From positions 1-64,000 of the forward strand of contig NZ_JABEQH010000011.1 in the NCBI RefSeq assembly GCF_014174305.1: a stretch of DNA of 64,000 nt, in the 5' to 3' direction. Numbering within the stretch: the first letter of the stretch is position 1; each line of letters starts with the position of its first letter. This DNA comes from Gluconacetobacter johannae. GTDB lineage: Bacteria > Pseudomonadota > Alphaproteobacteria > Acetobacterales > Acetobacteraceae. The position numbers and the translations under genes were made by a program. Positions 8,201 through 50,160 of the stretch are shown here, piece by piece. The notes beneath the pieces are model-generated. The model was given only the letters and a program-made list of their open reading frames with translations. It searched no databases and was not told the origin of the DNA.

Positions 8201-8777
8201 GCCCCAGGCCGCCTATGGCTACTGGAAGGCCGCCGGCCAGGGCAACGACCTGATCCTGTTCGCCGAGGACGGCACGACCGAGGTCGCGCGCTTCACCCTG
8301 CCGCGCCAGCCGCGCGACGATGGCGAATGCATCGCCGATTTCGTGCGCGACGTCGATGACGCCCGGCGCGATGTCGTCGGGTTGCAGGTCGTCACCGTGG
8401 GGCAGAAGGCGTCGGACATCGCGCGCGCGTGGTTCGAGGGCAATCGCTACAAGGACTACCTGTATCTGCACGGCCTGTCGGTGGAGATGGCCGAGGCCAT
8501 GGCCGAATACACCCACAAGCGCATCCGCGCCGAACTGGGCTTCGCCGCCGACGACGACCGCGACATGGCGAAGATGCTGCAGCAGGGCTATCGGGGCTCG
8601 CGCTATTCGTTCGGCTACCCGGCCTGCCCGCGCCTGGAGGACCAGGAGCCGATCCTGCGCCTGCTGGACGCCGAACGCATCGGCGTGTCGCTGGCCGAGG
8701 GCTACCAGCTCCACCCCGAGCAATCGACCTCGGCGCTGGTGGTGCTGAACCCGCGGGCGAAATATTTCTCGGTGTGA
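5271..8777 (+). CDS. metH: cobalamin-dependent methionine synthase
   Basis: An 1168-residue protein that transfers a methyl group from 5-methyltetrahydrofolate to homocysteine through bound cobalamin. The N-terminal homocysteine module has the three zinc Cys: C225 (GLNCATGP) and C291/C292 (GGCCGTS). The pterin module begins at SIGERCNANGSKKW. The B12 module carries GDVHDIGKN with the cobalt-ligand His at about 737. The C-terminal SAM-binding activation module is complete, with KDYLYLHGLSVEMAEAMAEY and SFGYPACP. The length matches the full four-module enzyme. The ATG at 5271 is chosen because AGGA lies just upstream and the Hcy domain follows directly. I saw no convincing SAH or cobalamin riboswitch in the leader. 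Confidence 0.97.
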   Translation: MTTRPHLLDALRDQVLLCDGGMGSRVQVLDLDVERDYWGQENCTEILNLSRPELVREIHRGYFEAGADMVETNSFGGSPITLGEFGLADRAREINRTAAHLAREAAESFSDGRHRYVVGSVGPGTKLPSLGNIDYDTLEAGLAEQCRGLIEGGVDALLVETCQDTLQIKAAVNGAKIARAELGADTPIFVQVTVETTGTLLVGPDIAAAATAIHALDVPLMGLNCATGPQEMSEHVRWLAENWPGLISIQPNAGLPELVDGQTHYPLSPADMATWVDRFVSEDGLNLVGGCCGTSTPHIAALDAMLRRRAEGTGRHRPAPVVRRPVWVPSVSSLYTQVPLRQENSYFSIGERCNANGSKKWRALQEEGDWDGCVAVGREQVGEGSNALDICTAFVGRDEMREMNEVVTRFTASVNAPLVIDSTETPVIEAALKLYGGKAIINSINFEDGEGHATDRMLLARKFGAAVVALTIDEVGMAKTAEDKLRIATRLVEFACDRHGLPQSDLMIDPLTFTIGTGVEDDRKLGAWTLEGIRLIRARFPDIQIVLGLSNISFGLNPAARAVLNSVFLDHAVRAGMTAAIVHVSKIRPLHLIPEEEVRVAEDLIFDRRSEGYDPLQRLLALFADRKAADAVKKTRAETVEGRLKDRIVDGDRKGLEAELDEAMRTIPPLDIINTILLDGMKVVGELFGAGKMQLPFVLQSAETMKAAVAHLEPHMERAEGQARGTIVLATVKGDVHDIGKNLVDIILTNNGYRVVNLGIKVPVADMIAATREHDADAVGMSGLLVKSTVIMRENLEEMARQGLDVPVLLGGAALTRNYVEEDCTAAYGAEGRVAYARDAFDGLSLMDQVTRGEFDAYLAAIRARRAGKATRARPRDMEQAENRGFGPVDVAAAHARRLRLTRDEPVTQPPFWGARVLEATPDAVLPFLNERSLYQFQWGFRKQGRSLDEFMGWARQELRPVLRRMLALTAAEDILRPQAAYGYWKAAGQGNDLILFAEDGTTEVARFTLPRQPRDDGECIADFVRDVDDARRDVVGLQVVTVGQKASDIARAWFEGNRYKDYLYLHGLSVEMAEAMAEYTHKRIRAELGFAADDDRDMAKMLQQGYRGSRYSFGYPACPRLEDQEPILRLLDAERIGVSLAEGYQLHPEQSTSALVVLNPRAKYFSV

Positions 8778-8800
8778 GAGGCGGGCCTGAAGGCCGCCTC
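8778..8800 (+). terminator. hairpin after metH
   Basis: GAGGCGG and CCGCCTC form a 7-bp stem around a 9-base loop directly after the metH stop. There is no U-tract, so it is a weak or Rho-assisted terminator at best. Confidence 0.4.
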
Positions 8801-8894
8801 GCGCCAACGCCGGAAATGGACGCCCCTGTCAGGCGATGCGTCCTGCCCGGCGCAGACCTTCTGCTTTCACGAGAATTTCGCAAAGGTGCTTTTT

Positions 8895-9665
8895 ATGAAT
8901 AATGAAAAATATCTTCCATCCGGACACCTGAAAAAGAGATTTTGCATTTTCACAAGCGCGGGCGACAACAATAACATTGCAAAACTCATGGAAGACAAGG
9001 AAAGCAGAAACTGGGACCTTGTCGTTGCGTTTTATGGGAACTCCGAGATTGCTTATCGCAATATTGCGGAAAAATCTGATTTTACCTTTATTATCAAGGG
9101 CGCAAAATTCCAGAATCTGAAATCCATCGTCGTCTCGCAGCCGGCCATTCTTTCCGGATATGATTACATCTGGGTTGTGGATGACGACATAGAATTCACT
9201 CTTGGAAATGCCAGTATTCTTTTTGATGTCGCTTCTTTTTTTGACTTTGATGTATCTCAGCCTGCTTTCAGTTCAAATGGGAAAATTTCTCACGAAATAA
9301 CGCGAATGGTAGAAAAGGAAAAACTTGTTGCAAGAATAGTAAATTTCATCGAAGTCACATGCCCGCTGTTTAAAGCGGAAGCTCTATTTGATTTTCTTAA
9401 TATATATGATGGAAAAATGGCCGGTTGGGGGGTAGACTGGTGGTTCTGCAACTATCTGGGATCAAATAAAAAGGCAAAGTTTGCGATTTTTGACAAAATA
9501 GTCGTCAAAAATATGCACGATTCGGAAAAAACCCCGGATGGAAAAAGAGAAATTTCCCAATATATGAGCGATAACGATCGGATCATGCAGTGGGAAATAC
9601 TTAAAAACAACTTTCATTACAAAGAATTCGACCACACAGTTTTCTTCGAACTTTCCTTGCCTTAA
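8895..9665 (+). CDS. DUF707-like protein, probable glycan-related
   Basis: A 256-residue protein in strikingly A+T-rich DNA compared with its surroundings. Motifs VVDDDIEF, SQPAFS, NFIEVTCPLF and KMAGWGVDWWFC match my recollection of the DUF707 family, whose members sit in exopolysaccharide loci and show a glycosyltransferase-like acidic DDD motif. The ATG at 8895 is preferred over a GTG at 8886 because AAAGG lies eight bases before it. It sits at the outer edge of the polysaccharide locus, convergent with the split-transketolase operon. Composition suggests recent acquisition. Confidence 0.7.
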   Translation: MNNEKYLPSGHLKKRFCIFTSAGDNNNIAKLMEDKESRNWDLVVAFYGNSEIAYRNIAEKSDFTFIIKGAKFQNLKSIVVSQPAILSGYDYIWVVDDDIEFTLGNASILFDVASFFDFDVSQPAFSSNGKISHEITRMVEKEKLVARIVNFIEVTCPLFKAEALFDFLNIYDGKMAGWGVDWWFCNYLGSNKKAKFAIFDKIVVKNMHDSEKTPDGKREISQYMSDNDRIMQWEILKNNFHYKEFDHTVFFELSLP

Positions 9666-9692
9666 AGCGTGAATCCGAACGTATCGGTGACA

Positions 9693-9713
9693 GCCCCTGC
9701 TGGGGCCGTTTTC
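9693..9713 (+). terminator. rho-independent terminator between convergent genes
   Basis: GCCCC-TGCT-GGGGC followed by CGTTTTC. It lies 28 bases after the DUF707-like stop and before the convergent operon end. Confidence 0.6.
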
Positions 9714-9730
9714 AAAGACGCTCCGTCCAG

Positions 9731-10657
9731 CTACCTGTTTCGGGCAGAAAGAACGCGCTCGGCCAGTCCTGTAGAGTCCAGACGATAGGTTCGTCGCAGG
9801 TCCTCCTGTCCCCCGTTGCGCGACGGCTGGGCAGGATCCATTCCCGCCCTCAGGACCTGGGCGCGGGGACCGGGCAATTCGGCGACGGCTTCAGCAACGG
9901 CTCCGCCCAGGCCGCCTGAAAGGACATGTTCTTCCACAGTGACCAGAAGAGGCAGGTCTTTTGCCAGACGGGTCAGGGTTTCCCTGTCCAGGGGCTGGAT
10001 AACCGGTACGCTCCATACGCCCATATCAATACCCTGGCCGGCAAGGAGCGAGGCGGCGGCCAGCGCCTCACCCGTTACGGGGCCGGTTGCAAGAAACGCG
10101 CCGTCCCGGCCAGGGCGCAGGCAGAGCATGGGGCCGAAGGGAACAGCGTCCAGAGATGTTTCATGCAGGGTCGGTTCGCCACCCTTGTTGAGGCGCAGAT
10201 ATGCGGGCCCCCCTTGCCGTCCCAGGGCGGCCAGAACCCAGGCGGCCTCCGCAGGGTCGGCGGGAACGGCCACCGTGATGCCTGGCAGGACCCGGGTCAT
10301 GGCCAGATCTTCCACGCCGTGATGCGTGTAGCCATGGCTGCCATAGGCAAAACCACCGCCGATGCCGATAACGGTCACGTCGGCCCCGTGGGCGACGATA
10401 TCGTTGCGGATCTGCTCGAGGCAGCGGATAACCGCGAAGTTGACAATGGACCAGCAGAAGACCTTGCGCCCGGTCATGGCCAGGCCGGCGGCTATTCCGG
10501 CCATGTTCTGCTCGGCAATGCCCACGTTTATGAAACGGTCTGGGAAGCGGGCTGCGAAGGGCTCCATGACTGAAAAACCCAGGTCTCCGGTCAGCAGCCA
10601 GACCCGCTCGTCGGCTTCGGCCAGGGCGACCAGCCCTTCGGCGACAACACTTCTCAT
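9731..10657 (-). CDS. transketolase-like protein, C-terminal (pyrimidine-binding) subunit
   Basis: A 308-residue half-transketolase containing the pyrimidine-binding and C-terminal domains. It has GIAEQNMAGIAAGLA, with the conserved Glu that activates thiamine diphosphate, and TVEEHVLSGGLGGAVAE near the end. It starts with ATG overlapping the stop of the N-terminal subunit by four bases, so the two make a split enzyme. It is the last of seven overlapping genes for nucleotide-sugar synthesis. In this setting a role in two-carbon transfer to a keto-sugar is more likely than the pentose phosphate pathway, but that is inference. Confidence 0.88.
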   Translation of the reverse strand: MRSVVAEGLVALAEADERVWLLTGDLGFSVMEPFAARFPDRFINVGIAEQNMAGIAAGLAMTGRKVFCWSIVNFAVIRCLEQIRNDIVAHGADVTVIGIGGGFAYGSHGYTHHGVEDLAMTRVLPGITVAVPADPAEAAWVLAALGRQGGPAYLRLNKGGEPTLHETSLDAVPFGPMLCLRPGRDGAFLATGPVTGEALAAASLLAGQGIDMGVWSVPVIQPLDRETLTRLAKDLPLLVTVEEHVLSGGLGGAVAEAVAELPGPRAQVLRAGMDPAQPSRNGGQEDLRRTYRLDSTGLAERVLSARNR

Positions 10658-11472
10658 GCGCCCAGTTCCGCCAGGGCTTTGGCAAATTCGTCGTCCCGTG
10701 GCGAGCGATAGTGCCAGAGCAGGTCATTTTCCATGAAACTCACACCTTTGCCCTTCACCGTATGCGCGATGATGACGGTGGGGCGGTCGCCTTCCGGCGG
10801 AGCGAGGAGGGACCGGCTGATGGCGTCGTGGTCGTGGCCGTCGATGGCACGCACGGTCCAGCGGCATGCGGCCAGTTTGTCCCGCAGGGGTTCCAGATCC
10901 AGAACCTCCGACGTCCGTCCGAAGCTCTGGATCTTGTTGTAGTCGATGATGGCGGTCAGGCCCGAGAGCTTGTGATGCCCTGCAAAGAGAAAGGCTTCCC
11001 AGTTGGAGCCTTCGTCCAACTCTCCATCACTGAGCACGGCGATCACCCGCCTGGGATCGGGCCGGCCCTTGTCTTCGGCGCGCAGCCCCAGGGCCATGCC
11101 GCAGGCGATGGGAAGACCATGGCCCAGCGAGCCGGTGGACGCCTCCACCCCCGGCACGCCCTTGCTGGTCACATGCCCGGCCAGAACGGCGCCATCGCGG
11201 CAATAGCTTTCCAGCCAGTCCAGTGGAAAAAACCCTCTTTCCGCAAGGGCGGCGTAATAAATGGCGGCAGCGTGTCCCTTGCTCAGAAGAAACCGGTCCC
11301 GCCCGTTCCAGGCCGGATCGGCGGGATCGACCCGCAGCAGCCCGCCGTAGAGCACAGCCAGCAGATCCGCCATGCTGAGACAGCTTCCGATATGGGAGGC
11401 CTTGGCCCTATGGACCATCCGCAAGGCATGAATTCGCAGTTGTCGGGCGAAATTCACGGTATCCAGCGTCAT
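10654..11472 (-). CDS. transketolase-like protein, N-terminal (ThDP-binding) subunit
   Basis: A 272-residue protein equal to the first third of transketolase. It shows HIGSCLSMADLLAVLYGG, the GHGLPIACGMALG segment, and the thiamine diphosphate/Mg motif SDGELDEGSNWEA continuing to DYNKIQSFG. Split transketolases of this form occur in archaea, in some bacteria and in sugar biosynthesis clusters. Its start overlaps the epimerase-FkbM gene by four bases and its stop overlaps the C-terminal subunit gene by four bases, so equal expression is expected. Confidence 0.88.
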   Translation of the reverse strand: MTLDTVNFARQLRIHALRMVHRAKASHIGSCLSMADLLAVLYGGLLRVDPADPAWNGRDRFLLSKGHAAAIYYAALAERGFFPLDWLESYCRDGAVLAGHVTSKGVPGVEASTGSLGHGLPIACGMALGLRAEDKGRPDPRRVIAVLSDGELDEGSNWEAFLFAGHHKLSGLTAIIDYNKIQSFGRTSEVLDLEPLRDKLAACRWTVRAIDGHDHDAISRSLLAPPEGDRPTVIIAHTVKGKGVSFMENDLLWHYRSPRDDEFAKALAELGA

Positions 11473-13580
11473 GGACGGTTGTCTTCCGGCAGCGTACGCA
11501 ACGCGGTGCTGACCGCGGCGGCGACGGCACTGTGGCGGTCGGGCACGAGAAACAGGAAATTGGTCGCTACGGTCTCATCCGTAATTCTGGAAATCTCCTC
11601 CAGACCGTTCGCTGTCAGCGCGTGGGCCACATACCCCAGGGGGGCGAGCAGATCGAGAATATCGTTGGGATGATAGTCGTATACTGCCGCCCATTTGCGT
11701 AGCAGCTCCATCATCAGCACCGGCCGGTGGCGCTCCAGAGTGGCGCCAGCGCCGCGCAGCACGAAAATTTCCGCTCCCTCCACGTCGATCTTGACCAGGC
11801 CGACAGCGCTGCCATTCGTGCTCTCGGTCAGCAGGCTGTCCAGGGTGCGCTGCGGGACTGTGACGCGCCTGTTCGGCTGGTCCGGGAAAAGGGGACGCCG
11901 GGAAGCTGCGACGCTGCCCGTAAACTCGGGCACATGAAGGGTAATGGTGTCCGACGCCTCGCCCAGCGCACAACCCGCTACTTTTACCACCGTTTCCAGG
12001 CCGTTGCGCGCGAGATTGGCGCAGAGCAGCATACGCGTGTCCGGCACGGGCTCCACGGCCAGAATGCCCGCGGTGCGGGTTTCAGCGTGCAGACTGGCGT
12101 GCAGGCTGTACCAGCCCACATTGGCGCCGATGTCTACAAAGCGCCCCCGGGTCGTCGCCAGCGTGGCCTGAAATGCGGCCAGTTCGGTAGGTTCGTAGTG
12201 ACCGTGGTTCAGCACATGCGCGGCTGCTCCACGGATGTCGCCGGCATTCAACCCCAGCCTGAGGCCGTTGGTGAGGGTGATCGTGGCGCCCTCGCCGGTG
12301 ACCGTCATCCCGGCCACGGCGTCCCTCACCAGGATATGGGTGTCGTCCAGACCCTGGTGATGGCGGGCCATGCTTTTCCAGAAACTGTCGCGCGGCATAC
12401 GGCCATGCGCGTAGGCTTCCATCAGGTCGGGAATGGCGGGTACCGCCTGCGGAAGCGGAGGAATGCGTTGCCAGCGCTCCGGTCCATGGCCGACGGCCGG
12501 CGCCTCGGCGGCTACGGCCCGGTTCCAGGCGATGGTGCGGGCCAGCCCTTCAGACAGGCCGACTTCCGCGATGCAGCCCAGTTCCGTGCGTATCCGGTCA
12601 AGGTTCGGACGCACCCGCGATGGTGATCCCGCCTGCGGGCGTGCGGACGCTGTCCGGACAGGTTCGGTAACGCCGAATAACCGGGCGATCTCGGTCGCGA
12701 GGTCCAGAATGGATGTTTCCGGACCGTCAGCACCAATGCCGTAGAGTCCTCCGTCCGCACCCGAGAGCAGAATCTTCAGGAAGGCGGTGGTCGCGTCCGT
12801 GACGTAACCGTAGGTGCGTGTGGCCTGGCCGTCGCTTTCCAGAACGAAGGGCCTGCCGTCCAGACCCAGGCGCACCATGGCGCCGACGATGCGTCCGTCG
12901 TCGATATCCTGGCCGGGACCGTGAACGTGGAAGGGACGGACGATACGCACGGGCACGTTATGCTGGCGCCACCAGGCCAGGGAGATGGCTTCCCCCGCGC
13001 GTTTGGCCTCGGCGTAGGCTGTCCGCGCCTGACGCCAGTCCAGCAGACCTATGGCGTCCTCGGACGTGGGGAACTGCTCTGGTGGAAGGGTTCCGTAAAC
13101 CTCGCTTGAGGATACGTAGAGCAACGCTGCCGCCCGGTCCTGGCGGGCGCGGGCCAGCAGGTGCATGAGGCCGGTCGTATTGGCGGCCATCAGGCCGGCC
13201 GGGTCAGCCATAAAGCTGCGTGGGGCCGCCGGCGACGCGGCGTGGATGATGTAATCCACCGGAGCCAGGGGGGGAAGCGGGAGGCTGACATCCTGGATCA
13301 GGGCCGTAACGCCGGGGTCTTCCGCCGCCCAGGGATGACGGCGGCGCAACGCCTCGGCAGAGCGGCCCAGAAGGGTCAGGCGGACAGGCTTCTCCACCAG
13401 TCCATGGGTATTCAGATAGGCGATGGTATCGACGATGGCGCCGGGCAGGAAGCCCGCCGCGCCGGTAATCAGCACATGGCGGCCGGACAGACGGGCGAGC
13501 TGATCCGCTGTCAGGCGGGCGGCAACCCGGCCCGCGTCCTCATTCAGGATGTCCCGGGCCGAAGACGGAAGAGCGGTCAT
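11469..13580 (-). CDS. fusion of NAD-dependent epimerase/dehydratase and FkbM methyltransferase
   Basis: One 703-residue frame carries two enzymes. Residues 33-350 form an extended SDR with GAAGFLPG (40-47), YVSSSEVYG and the catalytic YAEAK (189-193), giving NAD(P)-dependent epimerase, dehydratase or reductase chemistry on a nucleotide sugar. After a linker, residues about 440-690 form an FkbM-type SAM-dependent O-methyltransferase, with [10 protein letters not shown] (482-491) as the SAM motif and KIDVEGAE (597-604). The frame is continuous with no stop at the junction. Overlaps of four bases on both sides place it inside the rfb operon. Substrate unknown; a CDP-linked branched or dideoxy sugar is the likely first guess. 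Confidence 0.88.
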
Positions 13581-14893
13581 TGCCGACAGAAATCCGTGAT
13601 GGTTTCCGCCATGAAATCGATCATGGGATCGGTAAGGGCCGGGTGAACGCCAATCCAGAAGACATTGTTCATGACAAAATCCGACATGTGCAGATCACCG
13701 ACCTGGCGTCTGGGAACGTCGCGGTAGGCCGGTTGGCGCAGCAGGTTGCCGCCAAACAGAAGGCGGGTGCCGATGCGCCGGTCTTCAAGATGGCGAACCA
13801 TGGCATTGCGGGTGAAAGGCGCGTCCTCGCGTACGGCAATGGGGAAGCCGAACCAGCTCGGATCCGAACCCGGCGTTGCCTCCGGCAGGATCAGCAGATG
13901 CTGGAGAGGAGCGAGCGCCTTCCACAGCCTGTCGAAATTGGCGCGGCGGGCAGCAATGAATCCCGGCAGTTTTGTCAGCTGGGATACGCCTACCGCGGCC
14001 TGCATGTCGGTCGCCTTCAGGTTGTAGCCGATGTGGGTATAGATGTATTTGTGATCGAACCCTTCCGGCAGATCGCCCAGTTTCCAGGAAAAGCGGCGGC
14101 CGCAGGAATTGTCCTGACCCGGCTCGCAGAAACAGTCCCGGCCCCAGTCACGAAACGACTCGGCCGCCCGCATGACCAGTGGCTTGTCCATGAGGACTGC
14201 ACCGCCTTCACCCATGGTAATGTGATGGGCGGGATAGAAGCTGACCGTGGCCGCGATCCCGAAGGTTCCGACCCCCTGCCCCCGCCAGCTCGCGCCCAGC
14301 GCGTCACAACAATCTTCGATGACCAGCAGATCGTGGGCGCGCGCCAGTTCCATGACCCGGTCAAGGTTGAAGGGATTGCCCAGCGTGTGGGCCAGCATGA
14401 TGGCCCGGGTACGGGGGCCTATGGCCTCGGCCAGGGCCTCGACATCGACGTTGTAGGTGGGGACCTCCACGTCGACAAAAACGGGGACCAGACCGAGTTG
14501 CAGGATTGGATTGACCGTCGTCGGGAAGCCCGAAGCAACTGTAATCACCTCGTCTCCGGGCAGCAGACGCTTCTCTTTCATCAGAGGCGAGGTCAGACTG
14601 GCCAGGGCGACCAGATTTGCCGAGGATCCGGAATTGACCAGTCGGGCGTAGCGCCGGCCGAAAACCGTGGCGAATTCGCTCTCGAAACGTCTGGCGTAGC
14701 GTCCGGCGGTGAGCCAGAAATCGAGAGAGGCATCAACCAGCGAAGCCACATCCTCGGCGTCCCACACCCGGCGGGTGACGGGTACCGGGGTTTCCCCGGG
14801 CACGAATGCAGTCTGAGCGTTGGCCGCAGCGTGATGGGCCCGGGTCAAGGCCAGGATCTGATCGCGCAGATCCCGCTCCGCCGAAGCGGTCAT
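13577..14893 (-). CDS. rfbH: CDP-4-keto-6-deoxyglucose 3-dehydrase (E1)
   Basis: A 438-residue DegT/AHBA-fold enzyme that removes the C3 hydroxyl of CDP-4-keto-6-deoxyglucose. Unlike related aminotransferases, the PLP-binding Lys is replaced by His in [14 protein letters not shown] (His 223/224), the hallmark of E1 dehydrases, which use PMP. The [2Fe-2S] ligands fit C-X57-C-X1-C-X7-C exactly at C196, C254, C256 and C264, as recalled for Yersinia E1. The cognate reductase (E3, RfbI/DdhD) is not in the window, so electrons must come from a gene elsewhere. Four-base overlaps with rfbG and the fusion gene. Confidence 0.93.
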
Positions 14894-15882
14894 GCATTAT
14901 ACTCCAGATGATTTTTGTACCAGGGAATGGTGAGCCCCAACCCTTCGTCCAACGTATAGAGAGGCTTCCAGTCCAGCTCGTTCCGGGCCCTGGCCGCGGA
15001 AAGATACTGCTGGCGGATCTCGCCGAAAGGCTTGTTGAGAATCCGGGGCTCCAGGTCGCTGTCCATGGCCGTGAGAATACGCTGTACCAGGTCGAGAACG
15101 GTCACCTGTATCTCGTTGGAGAAATTATAGGCATTTCCGGCGATTTCGGGGTGACGGGCCAGATGCGCGGCCAGGGTCATGTAAGCCGCAGCCCCGTCCT
15201 CCACGAAGAAATAGTCGCGGATGAAATGTCCGTCCGAACGGATCAGGGGACGTTCGCCACGAAGGACCGAGCGGATGGTGCCAGGTATGATGCGGTTCCA
15301 GTTCAGGTCCCCGGGGCCGTAGAAATTGCCGCAGCGCGTGACGACCACAGGCAGGCCGTAGGTATGGGCATAGGCCTGGGCGATGAGATCCGCGCAGGAT
15401 TTTGAGACATCGTACGGCTGGCGTCCGATGAGCGGCATCTGCTCGTCATAGGGGAGGATCGCCTGCTCCCCATAAGCCTTGTCGGAGGAGGCCAGAATGA
15501 TCTGCCGCACGGTCGGCGCGTGGCGGCAGGCTTCCAGCACATTCCATGTGCCCTTGATATTCGCCTCGAAGGTGGAAAGCGGGTTGCGATTGGCAATGCC
15601 GACGATCGTCTGCGCCGCGAGGTGAAAAACCACCTGGATCTCGTATTCCCCGAGTATCCGTTCCATCAGGGCATAGTCGCAGATATCCCCGCGCACGACC
15701 GTGACCCTGGAGAGCAGACCCTCCGTCATCAGTTCGCAGGACGGCACCCAGTCCCGCACCAAAGCGACCACATCGGCCCCTGCCTCAACCAGACGCCGGG
15801 TCAGCGCGCCGCCGACAAGACCACTGGCTCCGGTGACGAGAACCGGCCGGTCGCGCCATTCAAAACTGTCGGCGTTTGTCAC
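14890..15882 (-). CDS. rfbG: CDP-glucose 4,6-dehydratase
   Basis: An extended SDR of about 330 residues that makes CDP-4-keto-6-deoxyglucose. Motifs: GASGLVGG for NAD (18-25), [20 protein letters not shown] and [10 protein letters not shown] with catalytic Y157/K161; the last two are typical of CDP-glucose dehydratases. Start choice: GGAGG lies five bases before a GTG at 15882, and that start gives a GTGA overlap with the rfbF stop. An ATG at 15885 sits only two bases from GGAGG, and an ATG at 15915 has no ribosome-binding site. Confidence 0.92.
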
Positions 15883-16661
15883 CATATCCTCCAGGGAGCC
15901 TTGCCCGAGTGCCATAATTCATTCAGTACTAGAAATTCCCGATAGGTGTCCATGGCGAAGAAAAAGCCGTCGTGCCGGTAGGCCATGAGCTCGCCCGCCG
16001 CCGAAAGGCGCTCCAGCGGTTCCCGCTCCAGGATGCAGTCCGGCCTGACGGACAGCCAATCCAGAACCCGGCGGTCGAAAACAAAGAAGCCGGCGGAAGA
16101 CCAGCCGTCCAGACGCGGTTTTTCCACAAAAGCCTGTACCGCATCCCCTTCCAGGTTCAGGACACCGAAGCGGGATACAGGCTGTACTGTGGTGACTGTC
16201 GCCAGTCGCCCATGAGATCGGTGGAAGGCAATCAGCTTTGCGATATCCACATCGGCCAGGCCGTCGCCATACGTGACCAGAAACAGATCGTCCGTATCTG
16301 GAATATACCGCTCCACCCGCTTGATTCTGGCACCCGTCATGGAGTCATCGCCGGTGTCGGCCAGGGTGACCTCGAAGTCATCTTCATCGTCGGGGGACGT
16401 GGGGAAGGAAATACTCTCCCTTGAACCAAGGCGCATGGTAAAGTCATTCATCATGGCGCGGTAGTTCAGGAAATACTCCTTAATCATCGTGCCTTTGTAT
16501 CCCAGGCACAGGACGAAGGAATTCAGGTCGTAGGCCTGAAAGATCTTCATGATATGCCACAGGATCGGTCTTCCGCCGACTTCCACCAACGGTTTTGGCC
16601 GATGTTCCGTCTCTTCCCGCAGTCTGGTGCCCTGACCGCCGCAGAGGATAACAACTTTCAT
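15879..16661 (-). CDS. rfbF: glucose-1-phosphate cytidylyltransferase
   Basis: A 260-residue nucleotidyltransferase that makes CDP-glucose from CTP and glucose 1-phosphate. The N-terminal [20 protein letters not shown] is the nucleotide-binding signature, with the RxRETE/HRPKP pattern of RfbF rather than the TDP-glucose enzyme. Later motifs are [29 protein letters not shown] and [18 protein letters not shown]. Its ATG shares one base with the stop of the upstream glycosyltransferase (TGATG). It supplies the substrate for rfbG and rfbH. Confidence 0.95.
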
Positions 16662-17689
16662 CAGCCGATTCCCCGCGCAGCGTCAATAATGGCCTTCATT
16701 TCAAGGCGTGTCGCCATGTCATAGCATTCCAGGGCCATGGCCTGATTGCCCAACGCCTCGGGGAAGCCATTCATTGCTGCAAAGTCGGGAATATCCATCA
16801 GGGCTGCGATGTACCGTTTTACCGCGTCCGCGCTGCTGCGCGTGTCGGCCTCGCGCTCCTGAATGAAGTTCACCCGGTTGATCGCGCGCTGGGCCGTCAT
16901 GACGAGCATGGTCTGGATACTGGCCGGGTCGTCGGCAAGCAATTCCTTCAACATGGCGACAAGGCCACCGTGCATGTGATCGTCAGGGTATTCCCAGTAA
17001 ATCTTGTTCAAGATCCGGTGGATTGTGATGTACTGGTTGAGGAAAACCGTTTTCGCGGCCAGCATGGCCGTGCCGGTGATCCACATGGGTGAATAAAGAT
17101 GGCGCCCGATTTCGCGCTTGTAGCCTTCCAGGTCGACAATGTCCCTGCGGATGACCCAGCGCGTCAACACATGGCCATGCCAGAACAGATCAATGAAGGT
17201 CTGTTTTCCCGGCGGAAAGACCTTGATACTGGGCAGGTCGCTTCGCCGTTCGATGCCGTCGATCCATAGATGATCGCCCGCCAGGTTGCGTTGGCCGTCG
17301 ATCTGTCGCATGGGGGTGAAAATGAGGCCGGTATCGGGCTCCTGACGCAGAACCATGCGGATCATGGTAATGGCATAAGGCATCAGCAGGTCATCATCCG
17401 TCAGCATGATGATGTATTTGCCCCGCGCCTCCTGCAGGACAAAAGCGACATTCTGTTCCGGTCCGATGTTTTCTTTCTGGTGGAAGACACGCAGTCGGGG
17501 GTCGTCGAAGCGATCAAGGACATCACGCGTATGGTCGGGCGAGGCGTTATTGCTGACAATGACCTCATAGTCCTCCCAGTCCTGGGCCAACGCACTATGC
17601 AGGCAACGTTGCAAGTCATCCGCCCGGTTGTAGCTTGGAATAACAATGGAAAAGAGGGGCGAGCTACTATCCGGTTGAGCAAGAGTCAT
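16661..17689 (-). CDS. family 2 glycosyltransferase
   Basis: A 342-residue GT-A fold enzyme, the first gene of the seven-gene operon. FSIVIPSYNRADDLQRCL at the start and the metal/nucleotide motif TDDDLL (97-102) identify GT2. The C-terminal half is largely helical and not assigned. No transmembrane segments, so it is probably cytoplasmic and adds a sugar to a lipid-linked or LPS acceptor. The operon promoter must lie between this gene and the divergent methyltransferase gene at 17889. Confidence 0.87.
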   Translation of the reverse strand: MTLAQPDSSSPLFSIVIPSYNRADDLQRCLHSALAQDWEDYEVIVSNNASPDHTRDVLDRFDDPRLRVFHQKENIGPEQNVAFVLQEARGKYIIMLTDDDLLMPYAITMIRMVLRQEPDTGLIFTPMRQIDGQRNLAGDHLWIDGIERRSDLPSIKVFPPGKQTFIDLFWHGHVLTRWVIRRDIVDLEGYKREIGRHLYSPMWITGTAMLAAKTVFLNQYITIHRILNKIYWEYPDDHMHGGLVAMLKELLADDPASIQTMLVMTAQRAINRVNFIQEREADTRSSADAVKRYIAALMDIPDFAAMNGFPEALGNQAMALECYDMATRLEMKAIIDAARGIG

Positions 17690-17888
17690 GATTCAACGCC
17701 TGTCTTCTGCAATGGAAAGCCAATGTTGAGCGACTATATACACCGGTTGGACGGGGCCCGTAAGGCGCTTTGTGCGGCCCCGCAACGTGCTCGCCCTGCG
17801 AGATTTTCCAGGCGACAAAGCTTTCCAATCATGGAACAATATCTGGTCGATACGAGTATTTTTTGACCATATATACCCTGAGGAACAG

Positions 17889-18623
17889 ATGAATTTCTGC
17901 ACCATTTGCGCCACGGCAAATAAATTTCAGGAATTTCGTGGCAGGTCGGCCGAGCAGTGTACCCGCTGCGGCAGTCTTGAACGTCAGCGCGCGATTTTCC
18001 TCTTTCTGACCATGAAAAATTGCCTGAAAAATATTGGCACGGATGACTTTGACAAGCGGATTCTTCACTTCGCTCCGGAGCCAATGCTGTTCAACGCCTT
18101 TTCAAATAACGGAAAGAACAGGAATTATAGATGCTTCGATTATTCTCCAGGTTCATATGGTTTTACCGGAAATTTTATCGGACGGCATGATCTGGCCGAC
18201 ATGGAAGGCACAAAAAAATTGCCGCCTGCCGATATCATCATTCATAATCATGTGCTTGAGCATATTCCCGCGGATTTTGCCGAAACGATTCAGGCGCTGA
18301 ACTCCCTTCTCGTGCCCGGCGGCATCCAGGCTTTCACCATCCCGATCAGACCGGGCAAATTTGACGAGGATCTGTCCCCTTCACTGAGTGACGATGAGCG
18401 CAGGCAAAGATTTTATCAGGAAGATCATGTACGCATCTTCGGTACGGACGATGCGGTCCCGATGATGCAGTCGATCATGAAAACGGACAAGGTTGTCTTT
18501 CGCCTTAATGAGCATATCAGCCCCGAACTTGCGGCCGCATATGGGTTGACCACGACCTACAAGGCGGACCGCATTGATTCGGTTTGCAGCAATACCGTAT
18601 TTTACTATATCAAGCCCCTTTGA
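17889..18623 (+). CDS. SAM-dependent methyltransferase with N-terminal zinc knuckle
   Basis: A 244-residue protein. An N-terminal four-Cys knuckle (C4, C7, C24, C27; FCTIC and CTRCGSLERQRA) precedes a class I methyltransferase fold with ILHFAPEP as motif I and HNHVLEHIPAD further on. This architecture is common in bacterial cell-surface loci. The ATG at 17889 follows GAGGA and fits the domain start; a longer reading from 17772 adds only unrelated residues. DNA is visibly richer in A+T than the operon. Divergent from the glycosyltransferase gene. Confidence 0.8.
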   Translation: MNFCTICATANKFQEFRGRSAEQCTRCGSLERQRAIFLFLTMKNCLKNIGTDDFDKRILHFAPEPMLFNAFSNNGKNRNYRCFDYSPGSYGFTGNFIGRHDLADMEGTKKLPPADIIIHNHVLEHIPADFAETIQALNSLLVPGGIQAFTIPIRPGKFDEDLSPSLSDDERRQRFYQEDHVRIFGTDDAVPMMQSIMKTDKVVFRLNEHISPELAAAYGLTTTYKADRIDSVCSNTVFYYIKPL

Positions 18624-18658
18624 CAGGGGCGATGAGCGTTACGGAGCCTGTCATCGCC
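18622..18658. terminator. hairpin between convergent methyltransferase and GT25 genes
   Basis: GGCGATGA (18628-18635) pairs with TCATCGCC (18651-18658), and TGACAGG (18621-18627) can alternatively pair with CCTGTCA. Two competing stems lie directly after the methyltransferase stop, consistent with a bidirectional terminator. No strong U-tract. Confidence 0.4.
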
Positions 18659-18676
18659 GCAACCCCATCGGCAAAG

Positions 18677-19423
18677 TCAGCCTCCGGCGGTCTGCACGGT
18701 GCTATTCGGCAGATCGTGCTTTGAAACAACGATCGGCGGCACGCAGACGCAAGCCTTCACGCTGTCGTAGACCGACGCCATCATGTCGTCGATGCCGGTG
18801 TTGATCTTGTTGCGGTTCAACCCTGGATAAAACACGTCCATGGGGCGGAGAGGCACGACATGCGACAGGAGGCGCTCCGCCCCTAGCGGTGAAATCGAAT
18901 AACAGATCGTTCCGTGCGCGCGAACAAGCGGGAACAATTCGGACCTGTATTTCGCTTCCTTGAAAGAAGACAGGTTGCCCATGACGTCCGCATGATACAG
19001 ATGCCCCGTGAATTTCGAGACTCCGGGCATCAGATCGAAGGTGACGTAGGCATCGGTATTAAAGCCCCACAGAATGATGTCCCAGTCGTGGGGGGCCGCC
19101 GAAAGAAGACGCTCCTGCTCCGAGCGGAAATCCGCTCTCATGACCGCATCATCTTCGGCGACGGTCGCCGGCTCCCGACTGTTGATGACCTCGGTCCAGA
19201 TCGCCATATGCGACAAGGCACACCCGATGGCCCCGTCGGTGTACTCAAGACCGGGGTTCATCAGGTGTTTATCCGCGAGAATTTGCCTCTCGACCCCTTT
19301 TCCGTCGATGGCCTGCGTTTTTGTGAAATATGCACACTCCGGATTGTCGTTCCGGAAGGCGGCAAGTCGTTCAGGACAGCGCTCGAGATTCAGGAGATGA
19401 TATCGCATTTTTATGTGGCCCAT
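18677..19423 (-). CDS. family 25 glycosyltransferase (LPS biosynthesis)
   Basis: A 248-residue protein with the GT25 hallmarks: YHLLNLERCPERL at the N-terminus, GAIGCALSHMAIW in the middle and AEDDAVM as the acidic metal/nucleotide motif. GT25 enzymes add galactose or glucose to lipooligosaccharide cores. It starts at 19423 or at the second Met at 19408; neither has a clear ribosome-binding site. It closes the polysaccharide locus on the right, convergent with the methyltransferase gene. Confidence 0.85.
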   Translation of the reverse strand: MGHIKMRYHLLNLERCPERLAAFRNDNPECAYFTKTQAIDGKGVERQILADKHLMNPGLEYTDGAIGCALSHMAIWTEVINSREPATVAEDDAVMRADFRSEQERLLSAAPHDWDIILWGFNTDAYVTFDLMPGVSKFTGHLYHADVMGNLSSFKEAKYRSELFPLVRAHGTICYSISPLGAERLLSHVVPLRPMDVFYPGLNRNKINTGIDDMMASVYDSVKACVCVPPIVVSKHDLPNSTVQTAGG

Positions 19424-19444
19424 GACTTATACGAACGAATCGGC

Positions 19445-19465
19445 AAATCCAGCTTTTGTGGATTT
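19445..19465. promoter_or_regulatory. short inverted repeat upstream of the GT25 gene
   Basis: AAATCCA-GCTTTTG-TGGATTT, 22 bases upstream of the GT25 start in an A+T-rich stretch. It could be an operator or a hairpin in the leader; function unknown. Confidence 0.3.
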
Positions 19466-19633
19466 GATTGGCATCTGAACCCTGCGCCGACATGTCGGAT
19501 ACCAACTGTTATTGCATGCTCGGTACGTAATGCGCGTATCCCGTCCGGATGGCAACACCCCGACCCGGAAGGACGCCCACGCCAGGCCAAGTGCCGCGTT
19601 GACCGCGCGGCGGCCCACCCGCATCATGCACAA

Positions 19634-20068
19634 ATGCCCCAGTCCGCGCCCCCTTCGCAGACAGACCCGGACGACGCCGCGCGGGCCGGGGAACGCATGT
19701 CCGGCGCGGATGGCGCGGCCGACGTGCTGGGCCGGCTGTGGGCCGGGTTGGCTGTCGGGGCCGACCCCGAGGGCGCGTCCGACCTGCATATCCGCCGCAC
19801 CGCCCGGGCGTTCGGCGTGCATGCCGAACATTGCCTGGCGGCGCTGATCGTCGACGATCGGGCGACCCTGGTCCGCGAAAGCGCCGACGTCGTGCACATG
19901 CTGATGCGCCTGTGGGCGGCCCGGAACGTCGCGCCCGAGGCGGTGTGGACCGAACTGGACCGCCGGACGCAGGTCGGCAACCTGCTGCTGTCGCTGAACG
20001 CGCCGGCGCGCGGCACCGGCCGGGCCATCACCCGCCCGTGGCGAATCCGCTCGACCAAGCTGCCCTGA
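19634..20068 (+). CDS. HisE/MazG-fold-like protein, metal site incomplete
   Basis: A 144-residue protein whose segment DPEGASDLHIRRTARAFG to LWAARNVAPEAVWTELDRR follows phosphoribosyl-ATP pyrophosphohydrolase (HisE) in order and spacing. The second-helix motif is kept (LVRESADVVHML compared with LVEEAADLLYHL). The first metal motif, GEExxE in HisE, reads GVHAEH here, so two or more Mg ligands are lost. It is therefore probably not the histidine-pathway enzyme. The ATG at 19634 has no obvious ribosome-binding site; an ATG at 19697 is a possible alternative. It precedes cvpA-purF on the same strand. Confidence 0.6.
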   Translation: MPQSAPPSQTDPDDAARAGERMSGADGAADVLGRLWAGLAVGADPEGASDLHIRRTARAFGVHAEHCLAALIVDDRATLVRESADVVHMLMRLWAARNVAPEAVWTELDRRTQVGNLLLSLNAPARGTGRAITRPWRIRSTKLP

Positions 20069-20257
20069 CCCATGCGCCCCGGCGGGAGGGGAGGCCCGAT
20101 CTTTCCCCTGTCGTCGCCGCGCGGACAATGGCATAAGCTGCCCCTCCGGACGGCCGCCGCCGTCCGCGCACCGAAAACGGAAGGAACGCGACGGCCCCAT
20201 GCACCGGGTCCCTGCCCCCCTTGCGCCTCGTCCCGCGTCTGCCCGGGCGGGCGGGCG

Positions 20258-20788
20258 ATGACGTGGAACTGGGCCGACCTGCTGTGCGGCGGCGTCGTCC
20301 TGGTCTCGGCCCTGCTGGGCTGCGGACGCGGGCTGGTGCGTGAAACCCTGGGGCTGGGCGGCTGGGTCGGCGCGGTGGCGCTGGCCGCGCACTGGACCGG
20401 ATCGCTGCAGCCGGTCGCCGCGCGTTGGGTCGCCAATCCGCTGGCGGCCGACACCGCGGCCTTCGTCGTGCCGTTCGTCGGCCTGCTGGTCGTCTTCACC
20501 CTGGTGGCGCAGATCTGCGGCCGGCGCATCCGCGGGTCGGCGCTGGGCGGGCTGGACGGCACGCTGGGCCTGCTGTTCGGCGGGGTGCGCGGCTATGGCG
20601 TGCTGGTGGCGCTGTACCTGACCGCCGGGCTGGTCGCCCCGCCCGCATCGTGGCCGGACGAGGTGCGCGACGCCCAGGCCCTGCCGCTGGTGGCGCGAGG
20701 GGCCTTCTATCTGGCCCCCTTCCTTCCCATTTCCATGCAGCCACGCCTTGCACAACCGGGGCAGACGCGCCATGACGCCCCGATCTGA
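20258..20788 (+). CDS. cvpA: CvpA family inner-membrane protein
   Basis: A 176-residue protein with about four hydrophobic segments, the first starting at WADLLCGGVVLVSALLGCGR and followed by GLVRETLGLGGW. This is the CvpA pattern. In E. coli cvpA is required for colicin V production and lies upstream of purF; the same order is kept here, with 45 bases between the genes. The ATG at 20258 was chosen because the hydrophobic N-terminus begins there; the frame is open further upstream without relevant similarity. Confidence 0.88.
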   Translation: MTWNWADLLCGGVVLVSALLGCGRGLVRETLGLGGWVGAVALAAHWTGSLQPVAARWVANPLAADTAAFVVPFVGLLVVFTLVAQICGRRIRGSALGGLDGTLGLLFGGVRGYGVLVALYLTAGLVAPPASWPDEVRDAQALPLVARGAFYLAPFLPISMQPRLAQPGQTRHDAPI

Positions 20789-20833
20789 ACCCTTACGAGG
20801 CCGCCCCCCGGGCCTGTCGAGGAAAGACCGCTG

Positions 20834-22360
20834 ATGTCCACCCGTTCCCCCGCCCCCGACGGCCCCGTCTTCCTGCATGACCCTGCCTTTGTGCGGGACG
20901 TGGCGCCGCAATGGCAGCACGACGACAAGCCGCATGAGGAATGCGGGGTCTTCGGCGTCTGGAACGTCAAGGACGCATCGGCGCTGACGGCGCTGGGCCT
21001 GCACGCCCTGCAGCATCGCGGGCAGGAAGCGACGGGAATCGTTTCGTACGACGGCGCGCGGTTCCACACCCACAAGGGGCTGGGCCTGGTCGGCGACGTG
21101 TTCGGCGACGCGCGGGTGATGGCCACCCTGCCGGGCCATCGCGCGGTGGGCCACAACCGCTACGCCACCACCGGGGCGACGCTGATCCGCAACGTCCAGC
21201 CCCTGTTCGCCGATTTCGAATTCGGCGGCCTGGCGGTGGCGCACAACGGCAACCTGACCAACGCCGAGACCCTGAAGCGCGCGCTGGTGCGCCGGGGCTG
21301 CATCTTCCAGTCCACGACGGACAGCGAGGTGTTCATCCACCTGATCGCCATTTCGCTGTACGCCAATGTGGTGGACCGGCTGATCGACGCGCTGAAGCAG
21401 GTGCTGGGCGCCTATTCGCTGGTCGCGCTGTCGCGCGACGCGCTGATCGGCGTGCGCGACCCGCTGGGCGTGCGGCCGCTGATCCTGGGCCGCATCGACG
21501 ACGAGGACGGCGGCGCGCCGTCCTGGGTGCTGGCCAGCGAGACCTGCGCGCTGGATATCGTCGGCGCCGAATTCGTCCGCGATGTCGAACCGGGCGAAAT
21601 CGTCATCATCGACAACGACGGCGTGCGCTCGATCAAGCCGTTCGGCGAACAGAAGTCGCGCTTCTGCGTGTTCGAATACATCTATTTCGCCCGCCCCGAC
21701 TCGGTCCTCGACGGCCAGCCGGTCTATGAGGCGCGCAAGCGCATCGGCGTGGAGCTGGCGCGCGAAAGCGCGGTCGAGGCCGACGTCATCGTCCCGGTGC
21801 CCGATTCCGGCGTGCCCTCGGCCATGGGCTATGCGGCGGCCAGCGGCATTCCCTTCGAACTGGGGATCATCCGCAACCATTACGTCGGCCGGACCTTCAT
21901 CGAGCCCACCGACCAGATCCGCCATCTGGGCGTGAAGCTGAAACATTCGACCAACCGGCCGGTGCTGGACGGCAAGCGGGTGATCCTGGTCGATGATTCG
22001 ATCGTGCGCGGCACCACGTCGCGCAAGATCGTGGACATGGTCCGCGCCGCCGGCGCGCGCGAGGTGCATATGCGTATCTCCTCGCCGCCGACGACGCATT
22101 CGTGCTTCTACGGCATCGACACGCCCGAACGCGGCAAGCTGCTGGCGGCCCAGCACGACCTGAAGGAAATGGCCGAGCTGATCGGCGTCGACAGCCTGGC
22201 CTTCATCTCGTTCGACGGGCTGTACCGCGCGCTGGGCCATGCCGACCGGGCGGCGGCGCAGGGCCGGTATTGCGACGCCTGCTTCACCGGCGACTATCCG
22301 ATCCCGCTGGTCGATCACGAAGCCGAAGGCGGTGACACCGCATTCATCCCCGCCGCATGA
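20834..22360 (+). CDS. purF: amidophosphoribosyltransferase
   Basis: A 508-residue enzyme for the first committed step of purine synthesis, PRPP plus glutamine to phosphoribosylamine. The Ntn glutaminase domain has its catalytic Cys at position 37 (ECGVFGVWN), implying a 36-residue propeptide that is removed. RYATTGAT and AHNGNLTN line the glutamine site. The PRPP-binding loop is VILVDDSIVRGTT. Near the C-terminus CDACFTGDYP is the usual family ending. The stop overlaps the start of the next gene by four bases (ATGA). Confidence 0.97.
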   Translation: MSTRSPAPDGPVFLHDPAFVRDVAPQWQHDDKPHEECGVFGVWNVKDASALTALGLHALQHRGQEATGIVSYDGARFHTHKGLGLVGDVFGDARVMATLPGHRAVGHNRYATTGATLIRNVQPLFADFEFGGLAVAHNGNLTNAETLKRALVRRGCIFQSTTDSEVFIHLIAISLYANVVDRLIDALKQVLGAYSLVALSRDALIGVRDPLGVRPLILGRIDDEDGGAPSWVLASETCALDIVGAEFVRDVEPGEIVIIDNDGVRSIKPFGEQKSRFCVFEYIYFARPDSVLDGQPVYEARKRIGVELARESAVEADVIVPVPDSGVPSAMGYAAASGIPFELGIIRNHYVGRTFIEPTDQIRHLGVKLKHSTNRPVLDGKRVILVDDSIVRGTTSRKIVDMVRAAGAREVHMRISSPPTTHSCFYGIDTPERGKLLAAQHDLKEMAELIGVDSLAFISFDGLYRALGHADRAAAQGRYCDACFTGDYPIPLVDHEAEGGDTAFIPAA

Positions 22361-46045: not shown

Positions 46046-46100
46046 TGCCGCGCCTCGTTGTCCGTTGTTTGGCACTGACCTGCTCATCGGCTGCGCGGCC

Positions 46101-47225
46101 CTACTTCGTGACCGCAATTGATTTGCGGAAAAGCGCCAAGCTGTAAATGAAAAAAGCCAGACCGACTACACTCACCATTGCAAATTGGGGCCAAACGGCG
46201 TCGAGCCCGCCACCGCGATAGATGATCTTCTGGGAAAAGCTGACGAAATGGCGCGAGGGCAGGAAGAAGGTCATGTACTGGAGCCAGACCGGCTGACTCT
46301 CAACGGGAGTCGATCCGCCCGAGAGGAGTTGCAGCATGACGTTCACAAAAATGATCAAGAGTGCAAACTGCGCCATCGAACGCGAGATAGTGCCGAGGAA
46401 TATGCCCAGCGCAGTGGCGAAAAAGAGGTAGAGCAAGACGCCGAAAAACCACAGCGACACCGACCCGGAAAATGGTACGTGCAGCACTTTCATGACGATA
46501 AAATAGAGAGAGAGAGCGGTCGCGACGAGAATGACGCAACTGTTGGCCCATACCTTTGCCATTGCGATTTCGAAAGCGGTCAGCGGCATTACGAGCAAGT
46601 GCTCCAGAGTTCCATGTTCACGTTCGCGGATCACTGCGGCCCCCGTCAAAACGACCGTGAGCAGAGTGACTTGATTGATAATTCCGACGACGCTCGCAAA
46701 CCACGAGGTCTCTCCGTTTGGGTTGAACAGCCTACGAATAATCAGATTTATGGATGGTTGCGCCGAGGCATCGGTGCGTCTGAAAAAACTCGAAATGCGC
46801 TCGCTAATGATATTCTTGATGTAGCCGCCGCCGATAGCGGCCTGCTGCATGGCGGTTGCGTCGATGTTGAGCTGGATGTCGGGATGGCGACCCGCGCGCA
46901 GATCGGCTTCGAACTGCGGCGGGATCACGACCACGAACATGAAACGGCCTTCATCCATTGCGGTTTCGACATCCGTCACGGCGATTGGCTCCGGCGTCTG
47001 GAAGCGGGGCAGATAGAAGGCTTCCTCCAGTTGCCTGGACAAAGCGGAATTATCTTCGTCAGCGAAGGCGATCGACGCGTTATTGACCTCGCTGGACGAG
47101 CCAGTGGCCTGAGCGTAGATCGCGCCGGTAAACGAATAGACGACGAAAATGAGCATGACCAGGTCACTGCTGACGCTGCGCAGTTCTTTAAGGCCGAGCC
47201 AGAAAATATTGAGGAGCGAGGTCAC
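46101..47225 (-). CDS. ABC-2 type permease (YhhJ-like)
   Basis: A 374-residue permease with one N-terminal membrane helix (ELRSVSSDLVMLIFVVYSFT), a large periplasmic domain (about residues 35-170) and five or so C-terminal helices around REREHGTLEHLLVMPLTAFE, the ABC-2 signature. The GTG at 47225 is preferred: AGGAG lies eight bases upstream and the downstream sequence matches family starts; the frame upstream overlaps the preceding gene. It probably works with the RbbA-like protein as a drug or lipid exporter. Confidence 0.88.
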   Translation of the reverse strand: MTSLLNIFWLGLKELRSVSSDLVMLIFVVYSFTGAIYAQATGSSSEVNNASIAFADEDNSALSRQLEEAFYLPRFQTPEPIAVTDVETAMDEGRFMFVVVIPPQFEADLRAGRHPDIQLNIDATAMQQAAIGGGYIKNIISERISSFFRRTDASAQPSINLIIRRLFNPNGETSWFASVVGIINQVTLLTVVLTGAAVIREREHGTLEHLLVMPLTAFEIAMAKVWANSCVILVATALSLYFIVMKVLHVPFSGSVSLWFFGVLLYLFFATALGIFLGTISRSMAQFALLIIFVNVMLQLLSGGSTPVESQPVWLQYMTFFLPSRHFVSFSQKIIYRGGGLDAVWPQFAMVSVVGLAFFIYSLALFRKSIAVTK

Positions 47226-47227
47226 CT

Positions 47228-50008: not shown

Positions 50009-50160
50009 GGGTACGTTCTCTGGCGTGTTGGGACAGGCGTTTCGCTGGCGCGCCGGCTCATTGATATTCTTCCTCCAGGCTGTGCAGGCCATGGAGTCAT
50101 TTTGCGGCATGCTCCGCATCCGGCGGTTCGGGGTTCGCCCTATTCTGCGCTTCGTCCTGG

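Follow-up and report, generated by a model that had tools for sequence, protein, structure and literature searches.

A split transketolase encoded with CDP-sugar genes in Gluconacetobacter johannae and its possible role in making branched surface sugars

Introduction

What would a transketolase do inside an operon for nucleotide sugars? This question is raised by a 64,000-nucleotide stretch of Gluconacetobacter johannae DNA (contig NZ_JABEQH010000011.1, positions 1 to 64,000, assembly GCF_014174305.1; hereafter the window), in which a minus-strand operon of seven genes joins rfbF, rfbG and rfbH, genes for sugars linked to cytidine diphosphate (CDP), with tktN and tktC, the two halves of a split transketolase. 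To the reading that this operon makes a C-4 branched CDP-sugar, namely by transfer of a glycolaldehyde unit to a CDP-4-keto-(3),6-deoxy sugar followed by reduction and O-methylation, we give a probability of about 0.6. The pairing of the split transketolase with CDP-sugar genes, furthermore, recurs in other genomes and is no local accident.

The classical CDP-3,6-dideoxyhexoses are abequose, paratose, tyvelose and ascarylose, and CDP-4-keto-3,6-dideoxyglucose of the yersiniose pathway is also of RfbFGH-type origin. The window shares RfbF, an RfbG-like protein and RfbH with the classical pathway, but its operon is without E3 and adds the split transketolase and a fusion protein with a short-chain dehydrogenase/reductase (SDR) domain and an FkbM domain (SDR::FkbM). 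In the biosynthesis of yersiniose A by Yersinia pseudotuberculosis, the thiamine diphosphate (ThDP) enzyme YerE extends CDP-4-keto-3,6-dideoxyglucose by two carbons (PMC12247030). YerE belongs to the decarboxylase class and takes pyruvate as its donor, whereas the window encodes a two-chain transketolase with the hydroxyl-donor residues kept. ErwE of the erwiniose pathway couples a hydroxy-oxo-acid to the same CDP-sugar, and MMAR_2332 of the caryophyllose pathway is YerE-like with similar donors, a ketone acceptor being described there as untried to date (PMC12247030); these two are YerE-like single-chain enzymes, unlike the transketolase-type enzyme of the window. Also, split-gene transketolases have been proposed for hydroxyacetyl transfer to a keto sugar in miharamycin and amipurimycin, nucleoside antibiotics of Streptomyces, and the 13 candidate split transketolases of Krug et al. 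2024, all in Streptomycetes, are described in the same source, a 2025 review of tertiary-alcohol-forming ThDP enzymes, as not characterized in vitro (PMC12247030).

Results

A preliminary description of this DNA, made from the letters alone, had proposed an operon of seven genes with overlapping ends. All seven open reading frames (ORFs), running on the minus strand from 17689 to 9731, and the families named for them were indeed recovered from the ORF list and by profile searches, as follows.

16661..17689, minus strand: GT2 glycosyltransferase, operon gene 1 (PF00535, 2e-29; TGATG overlap with rfbF), likely to transfer the finished CDP-sugar
15879..16661, minus strand: rfbF, glucose-1-phosphate cytidylyltransferase (TIGR02623, 318.0 bits; cut-off 300.25)
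14890..15882 (GTG start preferred), minus strand: rfbG, CDP-glucose 4,6-dehydratase-like SDR (PF01370, 5.8e-52; TIGR02622, 190.6 bits, below the cut-off of 278.45)
13577..14893, minus strand: rfbH, E1 3-dehydrase of CDP-4-keto-6-deoxyglucose (NF011936, 685.5 bits; cut-off 423)
11469..13580, minus strand: SDR::FkbM fusion of 703 amino acids, with an extended SDR at the N-terminus (PF01370, 8.1e-33, residues 36-283) and an FkbM methyltransferase at the C-terminus (PF05050, 2.5e-20, residues 483-650)
10654..11472, minus strand: tktN, ThDP-binding half of the split transketolase (PF00456, 1.5e-42)
9731..10657, minus strand: tktC, pyrimidine-binding and C-terminal half of the split transketolase (PF02779, 3.6e-33; PF02780, 1.1e-20)

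Every junction overlaps by 1 to 4 bases, as had been claimed: GT2 and rfbF share 1 nucleotide in TGATG, and 4 nucleotides (ATGA) are shared at each of the junctions rfbG/rfbH, rfbH/SDR, SDR/tktN and tktN/tktC. At rfbF/rfbG the overlap is 4 nucleotides (GTGA) only when GTG 15882, preceded by GGAGG at a distance of five bases, is taken as the rfbG start; with the rfbG ORF at its greatest length, from ATG 15915, the overlap with rfbF is 37 nucleotides.

TktN and TktC possess the ThDP-binding and catalytic residues and the fold of a transketolase, as judged from domains, alignment and a predicted model. The solved structures closest to them are those of another two-chain enzyme, the split transketolase of Carboxydothermus hydrogenoformans: the N-terminal chain 6YAK for TktN (263.1 bits) and 6YAJ for TktC (164.6 bits), the latter being also the top Foldseek match of the AlphaFold model of TktC (predicted local distance difference test, pLDDT, 88.3). 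TktN scored 252.7 bits with a transketolase model versus 23.2 with that of DXS, and TktC scored 166.6 bits with the best transketolase model versus 123.1 with DXS, which its predicted fold also resembles. Pfam assigned transketolase domains to both halves, together with Transketolase_C_1 in TktC and, in TktN, a weak overlapping match to DXP_synthase_N, and found in neither half the decarboxylase-type ThDP domains of YerE-like lyases.

We then compared the active site of the window pair and 32 relatives (33 rows) with that of E. coli TktA. TktN keeps the equivalents of H26, H66, H100, G114, D155, E160, N185 and H261, and TktC keeps E411, F437 and H473, with H461 replaced by G and D469 by H. Wherever the rows cover them, D155, E160, N185, E411 and F437 are kept in the window pair and all 32 relatives; the donor histidines are likewise kept, H26, H66 and H100 in 31/31 covering rows, H261 in 32/32 and H473 in 33/33. 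At the acceptor side, H461 is G and D469 is H, Q, A or L in 33/33 rows; at the positions of the acceptor residues H461, D469 and R520 the window pair itself has G, H and K. Among the 29 loci linked to CDP-sugar genes (defined below), H461 and D469 are lost in all 29, whereas R520 is replaced by K in 24 and retained in five. The equivalents of both H461 and D469 are, in contrast, kept in the Carboxydothermus enzyme according to the alignment. In E. coli transketolase, H461 has been tied to the substrate phosphate, and the D469T and D469A variants are described as raising activity on propionaldehyde only (PMC3657141). A hydroxylated two-carbon donor fits this active site because the donor-side histidines are kept, and an unusual acceptor fits because H461 and D469 are lost.

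In order to see whether such a transketolase adjoins CDP-sugar genes elsewhere, two sets of loci were used. A scan of genome contigs with TktC, one genome per species, gave 33 loci, 32 of which were counted as split transketolases; the remaining one, L041, was dropped at 27% identity and with no TktN. In an independent sample of 385 genomes of the class of the window, TktC had 103 matches at E 1e-60, spread over 85 genomes, and 100 of these loci were examined (G227:C2 and G036:C60 were left out, and the window was counted separately). Linkage was called from CDP-sugar genes within 9 kb at fixed thresholds (rfbF at least 220 bits, rfbG at least 270 bits, rfbH at least 400 bits); flanks in the class sample were about 7 kb, shorter at contig ends, so that 9 kb is there an upper limit. 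By this measure, CDP-keto-sugar genes lie near the split transketolase in 20 of the 32 scan loci, eight of the 100 class-sample loci and the window, that is, in 29 loci. rfbF and rfbG are present together in 15 of the 20 linked scan loci and in all eight linked loci of the class sample. The class-sample number may be set beside a chance expectation of about 0.2, a hand estimate (about 47 matches in genomes with rfbF × 18 kb / about 4 Mb) that ignores the clustering of polysaccharide genes; rfbF occurs in 111 of the 385 genomes. Six of the unlinked scan loci (L015, L017, L019, L021, L025 and L037) are on short contigs or at contig ends, and the other six (L031, L032, L034, L038, L039 and L040) are not. 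In 21 of the 29 linked loci, including the window, the rfb genes and tkt stand in one same-strand chain, by a lenient rule in which any same-strand ORF of at least 200 amino acids counts as a link. The bacterial records among the linked scan loci are assigned to Chloroflexota, Thermodesulfobacteriota, Planctomycetota, Myxococcota, Cyanobacteriota, Acidobacteriota, Armatimonadota, Actinomycetota and Pseudomonadota, and one further locus to a thermoplasmatal archaeon; single placements may be binning errors, since most records are metagenome-assembled.

The preliminary description had rfbF, rfbG and rfbH making CDP-4-keto-3,6-dideoxyglucose. RfbF and RfbH are both above their family cut-offs, and RfbG is below its own. 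RfbF is the single match above the TIGR02623 cut-off in the genome. In RfbH, His takes the place of the Lys that binds pyridoxal phosphate (PLP; SFYPAHHIT), and the cysteines of a CxC...C pattern are present, as in 15/15 different RfbH proteins aligned; this exchange and the iron-sulfur cysteines are marks of E1 3-dehydrases. For RfbG, TIGR02622 (CDP-glucose 4,6-dehydratase) is the best NCBIfam match, close to the score of dTDP-glucose 4,6-dehydratase (186.6), and SDK and YxxxK motifs are present, the latter as YDVSK. With TIGR02622, an rfbG of the window type in L013 scored 210.1 and one of the canonical type in L018 scored 508.3; the window type also stands between rfbF and rfbH in L013 and L022. 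Because the TIGR02622 score is under the cut-off, rfbG is named here by position, motifs and context, and its product is likely a CDP-glucose 4,6-dehydratase.

Which of these genes accompany the transketolase most regularly bears on its acceptor. A 4,6-dehydratase is encoded in 28 of the 29 linked loci; only L028, which sits at a contig end, has none. Adjacency of rfbH and split tkt across genomes, which the preliminary description wished to see checked, holds in part: rfbH is present in 15 of the 29, and none lies within 9 kb in the other 14, some of which are at contig ends (e.g., L011). The shared acceptor is thus probably the C-4 ketone, and the class of acceptors is better described as CDP-4-keto-6-deoxy sugars with 3-deoxygenation optional; the yersiniose intermediate, earlier given as the acceptor, stays as one case of this class.

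Partners for the late steps were also found to recur. The SDR domain of the window has a YAEAK motif and is a candidate reductase or epimerase. An SDR is near the transketolase in 24 of the 29 linked loci. The other five have none, and three of these (L013, L022 and L023) encode an aminotransferase that retains the PLP lysine. Such a pattern would be expected if branching leaves a ketone to be reduced or aminated. In L013, the aminotransferase is of the DegT family and is fused to a GNAT acetyltransferase domain (L013:6538-8358) inside the rfbFGH-tkt operon; ORFs similar to this fusion, as judged from the aminotransferase part, are seen in L022 and L023. FkbM is placed in three ways, namely fused to the SDR (the window), fused to TktN (L012) and as separate SDR and FkbM genes (L070 and L080). 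The TktN fusion is natural in that FkbM reads without a stop into TktN (L012:4296-6194, a Sorangium metagenome-assembled genome). Methyltransferases recur in six linked loci, with the TylF type in L013 and L014, and sulfotransferases are found in L011, L016 and L024. A sulfotransferase followed by an APH-type kinase lies between rfbG and the SDR-tkt block in L016 (6125-8255) and L024 (2018-4050).

A tree was built from 130 sequences, that is, 127 loci with both TktN and TktC and three full-length transketolases; L025, L037, L106, L107, L119 and L153 were left out as too short or without TktN. The tree comes from a quick search and has several long branches, and its deep order is therefore unsure. 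In this tree, 27 of the 29 CDP-linked rows fall in one clade of 41 rows (SH-aLRT 99), and the CDP label changes 11 times, compared with a mean of 26.4 in shuffles, none of 500 of which was as low. Three actinobacterial members of this clade, L031, L038 and L040, have no CDP genes within 9 kb, and in L031 an enoyl-CoA hydratase gene follows tktC. Neighboring clades partly adjoin one or two DegT aminotransferases (DegT of at least 74 bits near 17 of the 55 matches scoring 265-340 bits). In a sister clade, L075, L081, L082, L085 and L106 have two DegT matches directly downstream of tktC and no rfbF within 9 kb, and the PLP lysine is kept in the DegT proteins of L075 and L082. These DegT-adjoining split transketolases probably belong to another sugar pathway with a transketolase step.

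The genome of the window (3.63 Mb, 99.99% complete) was also searched with the pyrimidine-binding domain, which gave eight matches including the window's own. One of them, on contig C3, is a full-length transketolase (641.6 bits against E. coli TktA), and another is a second transketolase-like protein. We rejected the possibility, considered in the preliminary description, that TktN/TktC is the only transketolase of the cell and serves central metabolism, given this separate full-length enzyme.

As for the surroundings of the operon, its genes have a G+C content of 0.56-0.66, compared with 0.69 for metH and 0.66 for the window. The operon is flanked by genes of low G+C at 8886-9665 and 17772-18623 (0.39 and 0.49), which encode a DUF707 protein and a methyltransferase; this suggests that a glycan island was gained between metH and purF by horizontal transfer. 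In 8700-20900, Rfam detected no RNA element; a tRNA-His called by ARAGORN at 19705-19798, where Rfam gives no tRNA at its gathering score, is probably a false call. Near a tRNA-Arg, an exporter set at 44432-51261 comprises, in a row, an outer-membrane efflux protein, an ABC-2 permease, a protein with two ABC ATPase domains and an ABC-2 permease, and an HlyD-type protein.

Discussion

The gene content with its overlaps, the recurrence of the cassette in distant genomes, the kept and altered active-site residues and the fusions among SDR, FkbM and TktN are the observations from which we infer an acceptor, a donor, a regiochemistry, an order of the late steps and a destination of the sugar. RfbF and RfbG would convert glucose-1-phosphate to CDP-4-keto-6-deoxyglucose, and RfbH, with an electron donor encoded elsewhere, would remove the C-3 oxygen. 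TktN and TktC would form one transketolase, which may draw a glycolaldehyde unit from hydroxypyruvate or a ketose phosphate and transfer it to the ketone at C-4; the product would be a tertiary alcohol bearing a hydroxyacetyl branch. Reduction of the branch ketone by the SDR domain would yield a 1,2-dihydroxyethyl group, the FkbM domain of the same fusion would O-methylate one hydroxyl, and GT2 would attach the sugar to a surface glycan.

Several observations, nonetheless, weigh against this scheme. First, the altered acceptor site is not peculiar to CDP loci. G461 occurs in 89 of 133 TktC sequences, only 29 of which are CDP-linked, and D469 is kept in only six of 104 non-CDP rows; we therefore rejected H461 to G with loss of D469 as a CDP-specific signature, and the altered site marks a wider family and by itself names no CDP-sugar acceptor. 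More informative is G461 combined with Q or H at 469, which occurs in 28 of the 133 rows, 19 of them CDP-linked. The nine other rows with it are all scan loci (L015, L017, L019, L021, L025, L032, L034, L037 and L039), of which the seven in the tree (L025 and L037 were too short) all fall in the 41-row clade; L or A, however, stands at 469 in ten of the 29 CDP-linked loci. Second, in the model of TktC the loop that holds the 469 equivalent (residues 104-111) has pLDDT below 50, and the model is for this reason uninformative on the acceptor site. Equivalents of R358 and S385 appear kept in one alignment, which may mean that the phosphate site is partly retained; since two alignments disagree in the S385 column, we do not rely on either residue. 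Third, no E3 reductase gene was found in the operon by the ORF list and domain search, and one E3-like query matched the genome only weakly (34.9 and 26.6 bits). This query came from L010, the only one of the 133 compared loci to show an E3-like protein at E 1e-10, where it was itself named by PF00175 and position alone. E1 enzymes borrow cellular reductases. Fourth, the SDR domain has UDP-glucuronate decarboxylase 1 as its nearest solved structure by sequence, which makes reduction of the branch by it a guess. Fifth, in terms of linkage, eight of the 29 linked loci fail the same-strand chain rule, three of the eight linked class-sample loci (L077, L078 and L125) come from one genus and are not independent, and 14 rows of the 41-row clade have no CDP genes within 9 kb. 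Five of these 14 (L015, L017, L019, L021 and L066) are on contigs shorter than 8 kb, and L032, L034 and L039 keep the transketolase-SDR pair with rfbF elsewhere in the genome (3/3); no rfbF was found at E 1e-40 in the genomes of L065 (G027), L066 (G224) and L038.

The alternative that survives best is that the operon serves two products of the same glycan: an ordinary CDP-3,6-dideoxyhexose, its 4-ketone reduced by the SDR, and a separate sugar or precursor made by TktN/TktC, for example a chain-extended ketose. Pathways to CDP-dideoxyhexoses ordinarily combine RfbFGH with an SDR, the SDR family is compatible with a 4-ketoreductase, and some sister split transketolases adjoin aminotransferases with no CDP genes within 9 kb, so that this type of enzyme has other substrates as well. 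Against two products stand the chaining of the split tkt to rfbF/rfbG in several phyla and the aminotransferase found where the SDR is missing (L013, L022 and L023); also, no constant second gene for nucleotide-sugar activation was noticed in the loci inspected, among which this was not tested systematically. We regard two products as unlikely.

Still less probable is an acetyl transfer like that of YerE, in which TktN/TktC would use pyruvate or another oxo-acid and the product would be a yersiniose-like sugar. CDP-4-keto-3,6-dideoxyglucose is also the intermediate of YerE (PMC12247030), and the TktC scores and fold noted above lie rather near DXS. Wild-type transketolase refuses pyruvate, and E. 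coli variants that accept it carried H100L or H473N with D469T (PMC10787763); the loss of D469 in the window family thus counts for pyruvate and against glycolaldehyde transfer. H100 and H473 are, however, kept together with H26, H66 and H261, and TktN is far closer to transketolase than to DXS in score. Finally, that the pair is a transketolase of carbon metabolism, in the operon by chance or supplying pentose or heptose phosphates, accords with its family and with the Carboxydothermus enzyme as its nearest fold but is the least probable of all, given the other transketolases of the genome, a linkage repeated across phyla and the loss of H461 and D469, both kept in 6YAJ.

Glycolaldehyde transfer to the CDP-4-keto sugar, the reading we prefer, had been put forward in the preliminary description as a route not known to be described. 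The chemistry is not wholly new in this sense, because hydroxyacetyl transfer to a keto sugar by split transketolases has been proposed for miharamycin and amipurimycin (PMC12247030). As described there, those enzymes resemble that of the window in the proposed transfer and differ in serving nucleoside antibiotics. What stands of the claim is the CDP linkage: a full-text search, with partial coverage that lacks most subscription papers and judged from titles and abstracts, found no transketolase in a CDP-sugar locus. The CDP-linked split transketolase is hence a further form of an already proposed, unproven idea of ketone branching.

In a broader sense, the loci examined may represent a widespread, unrecognized class of two-chain transketolases, in records of ten phyla, whose natural acceptor is a ketone, namely the C-4 keto group of CDP-6-deoxy sugars, and whose 4-C-hydroxyacetyl products would then be reduced, aminated, methylated or sulfated; we hold the odds of this to be about even. 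If true, this would provide the first proven case of a physiological transketolase with a ketone acceptor. Enzymes that give chiral tertiary alcohols from ketones are wanted, and the operon and its relatives provide a further set of candidates, for which the predicted nucleotide-sugar acceptor can be made enzymatically; the question of ketone branching by split transketolases thereby becomes testable. The recurring pairing suggests a little-noticed way to build branched surface sugars and would point to the presence of such sugars in environmental bacteria, where they have perhaps never been sought.

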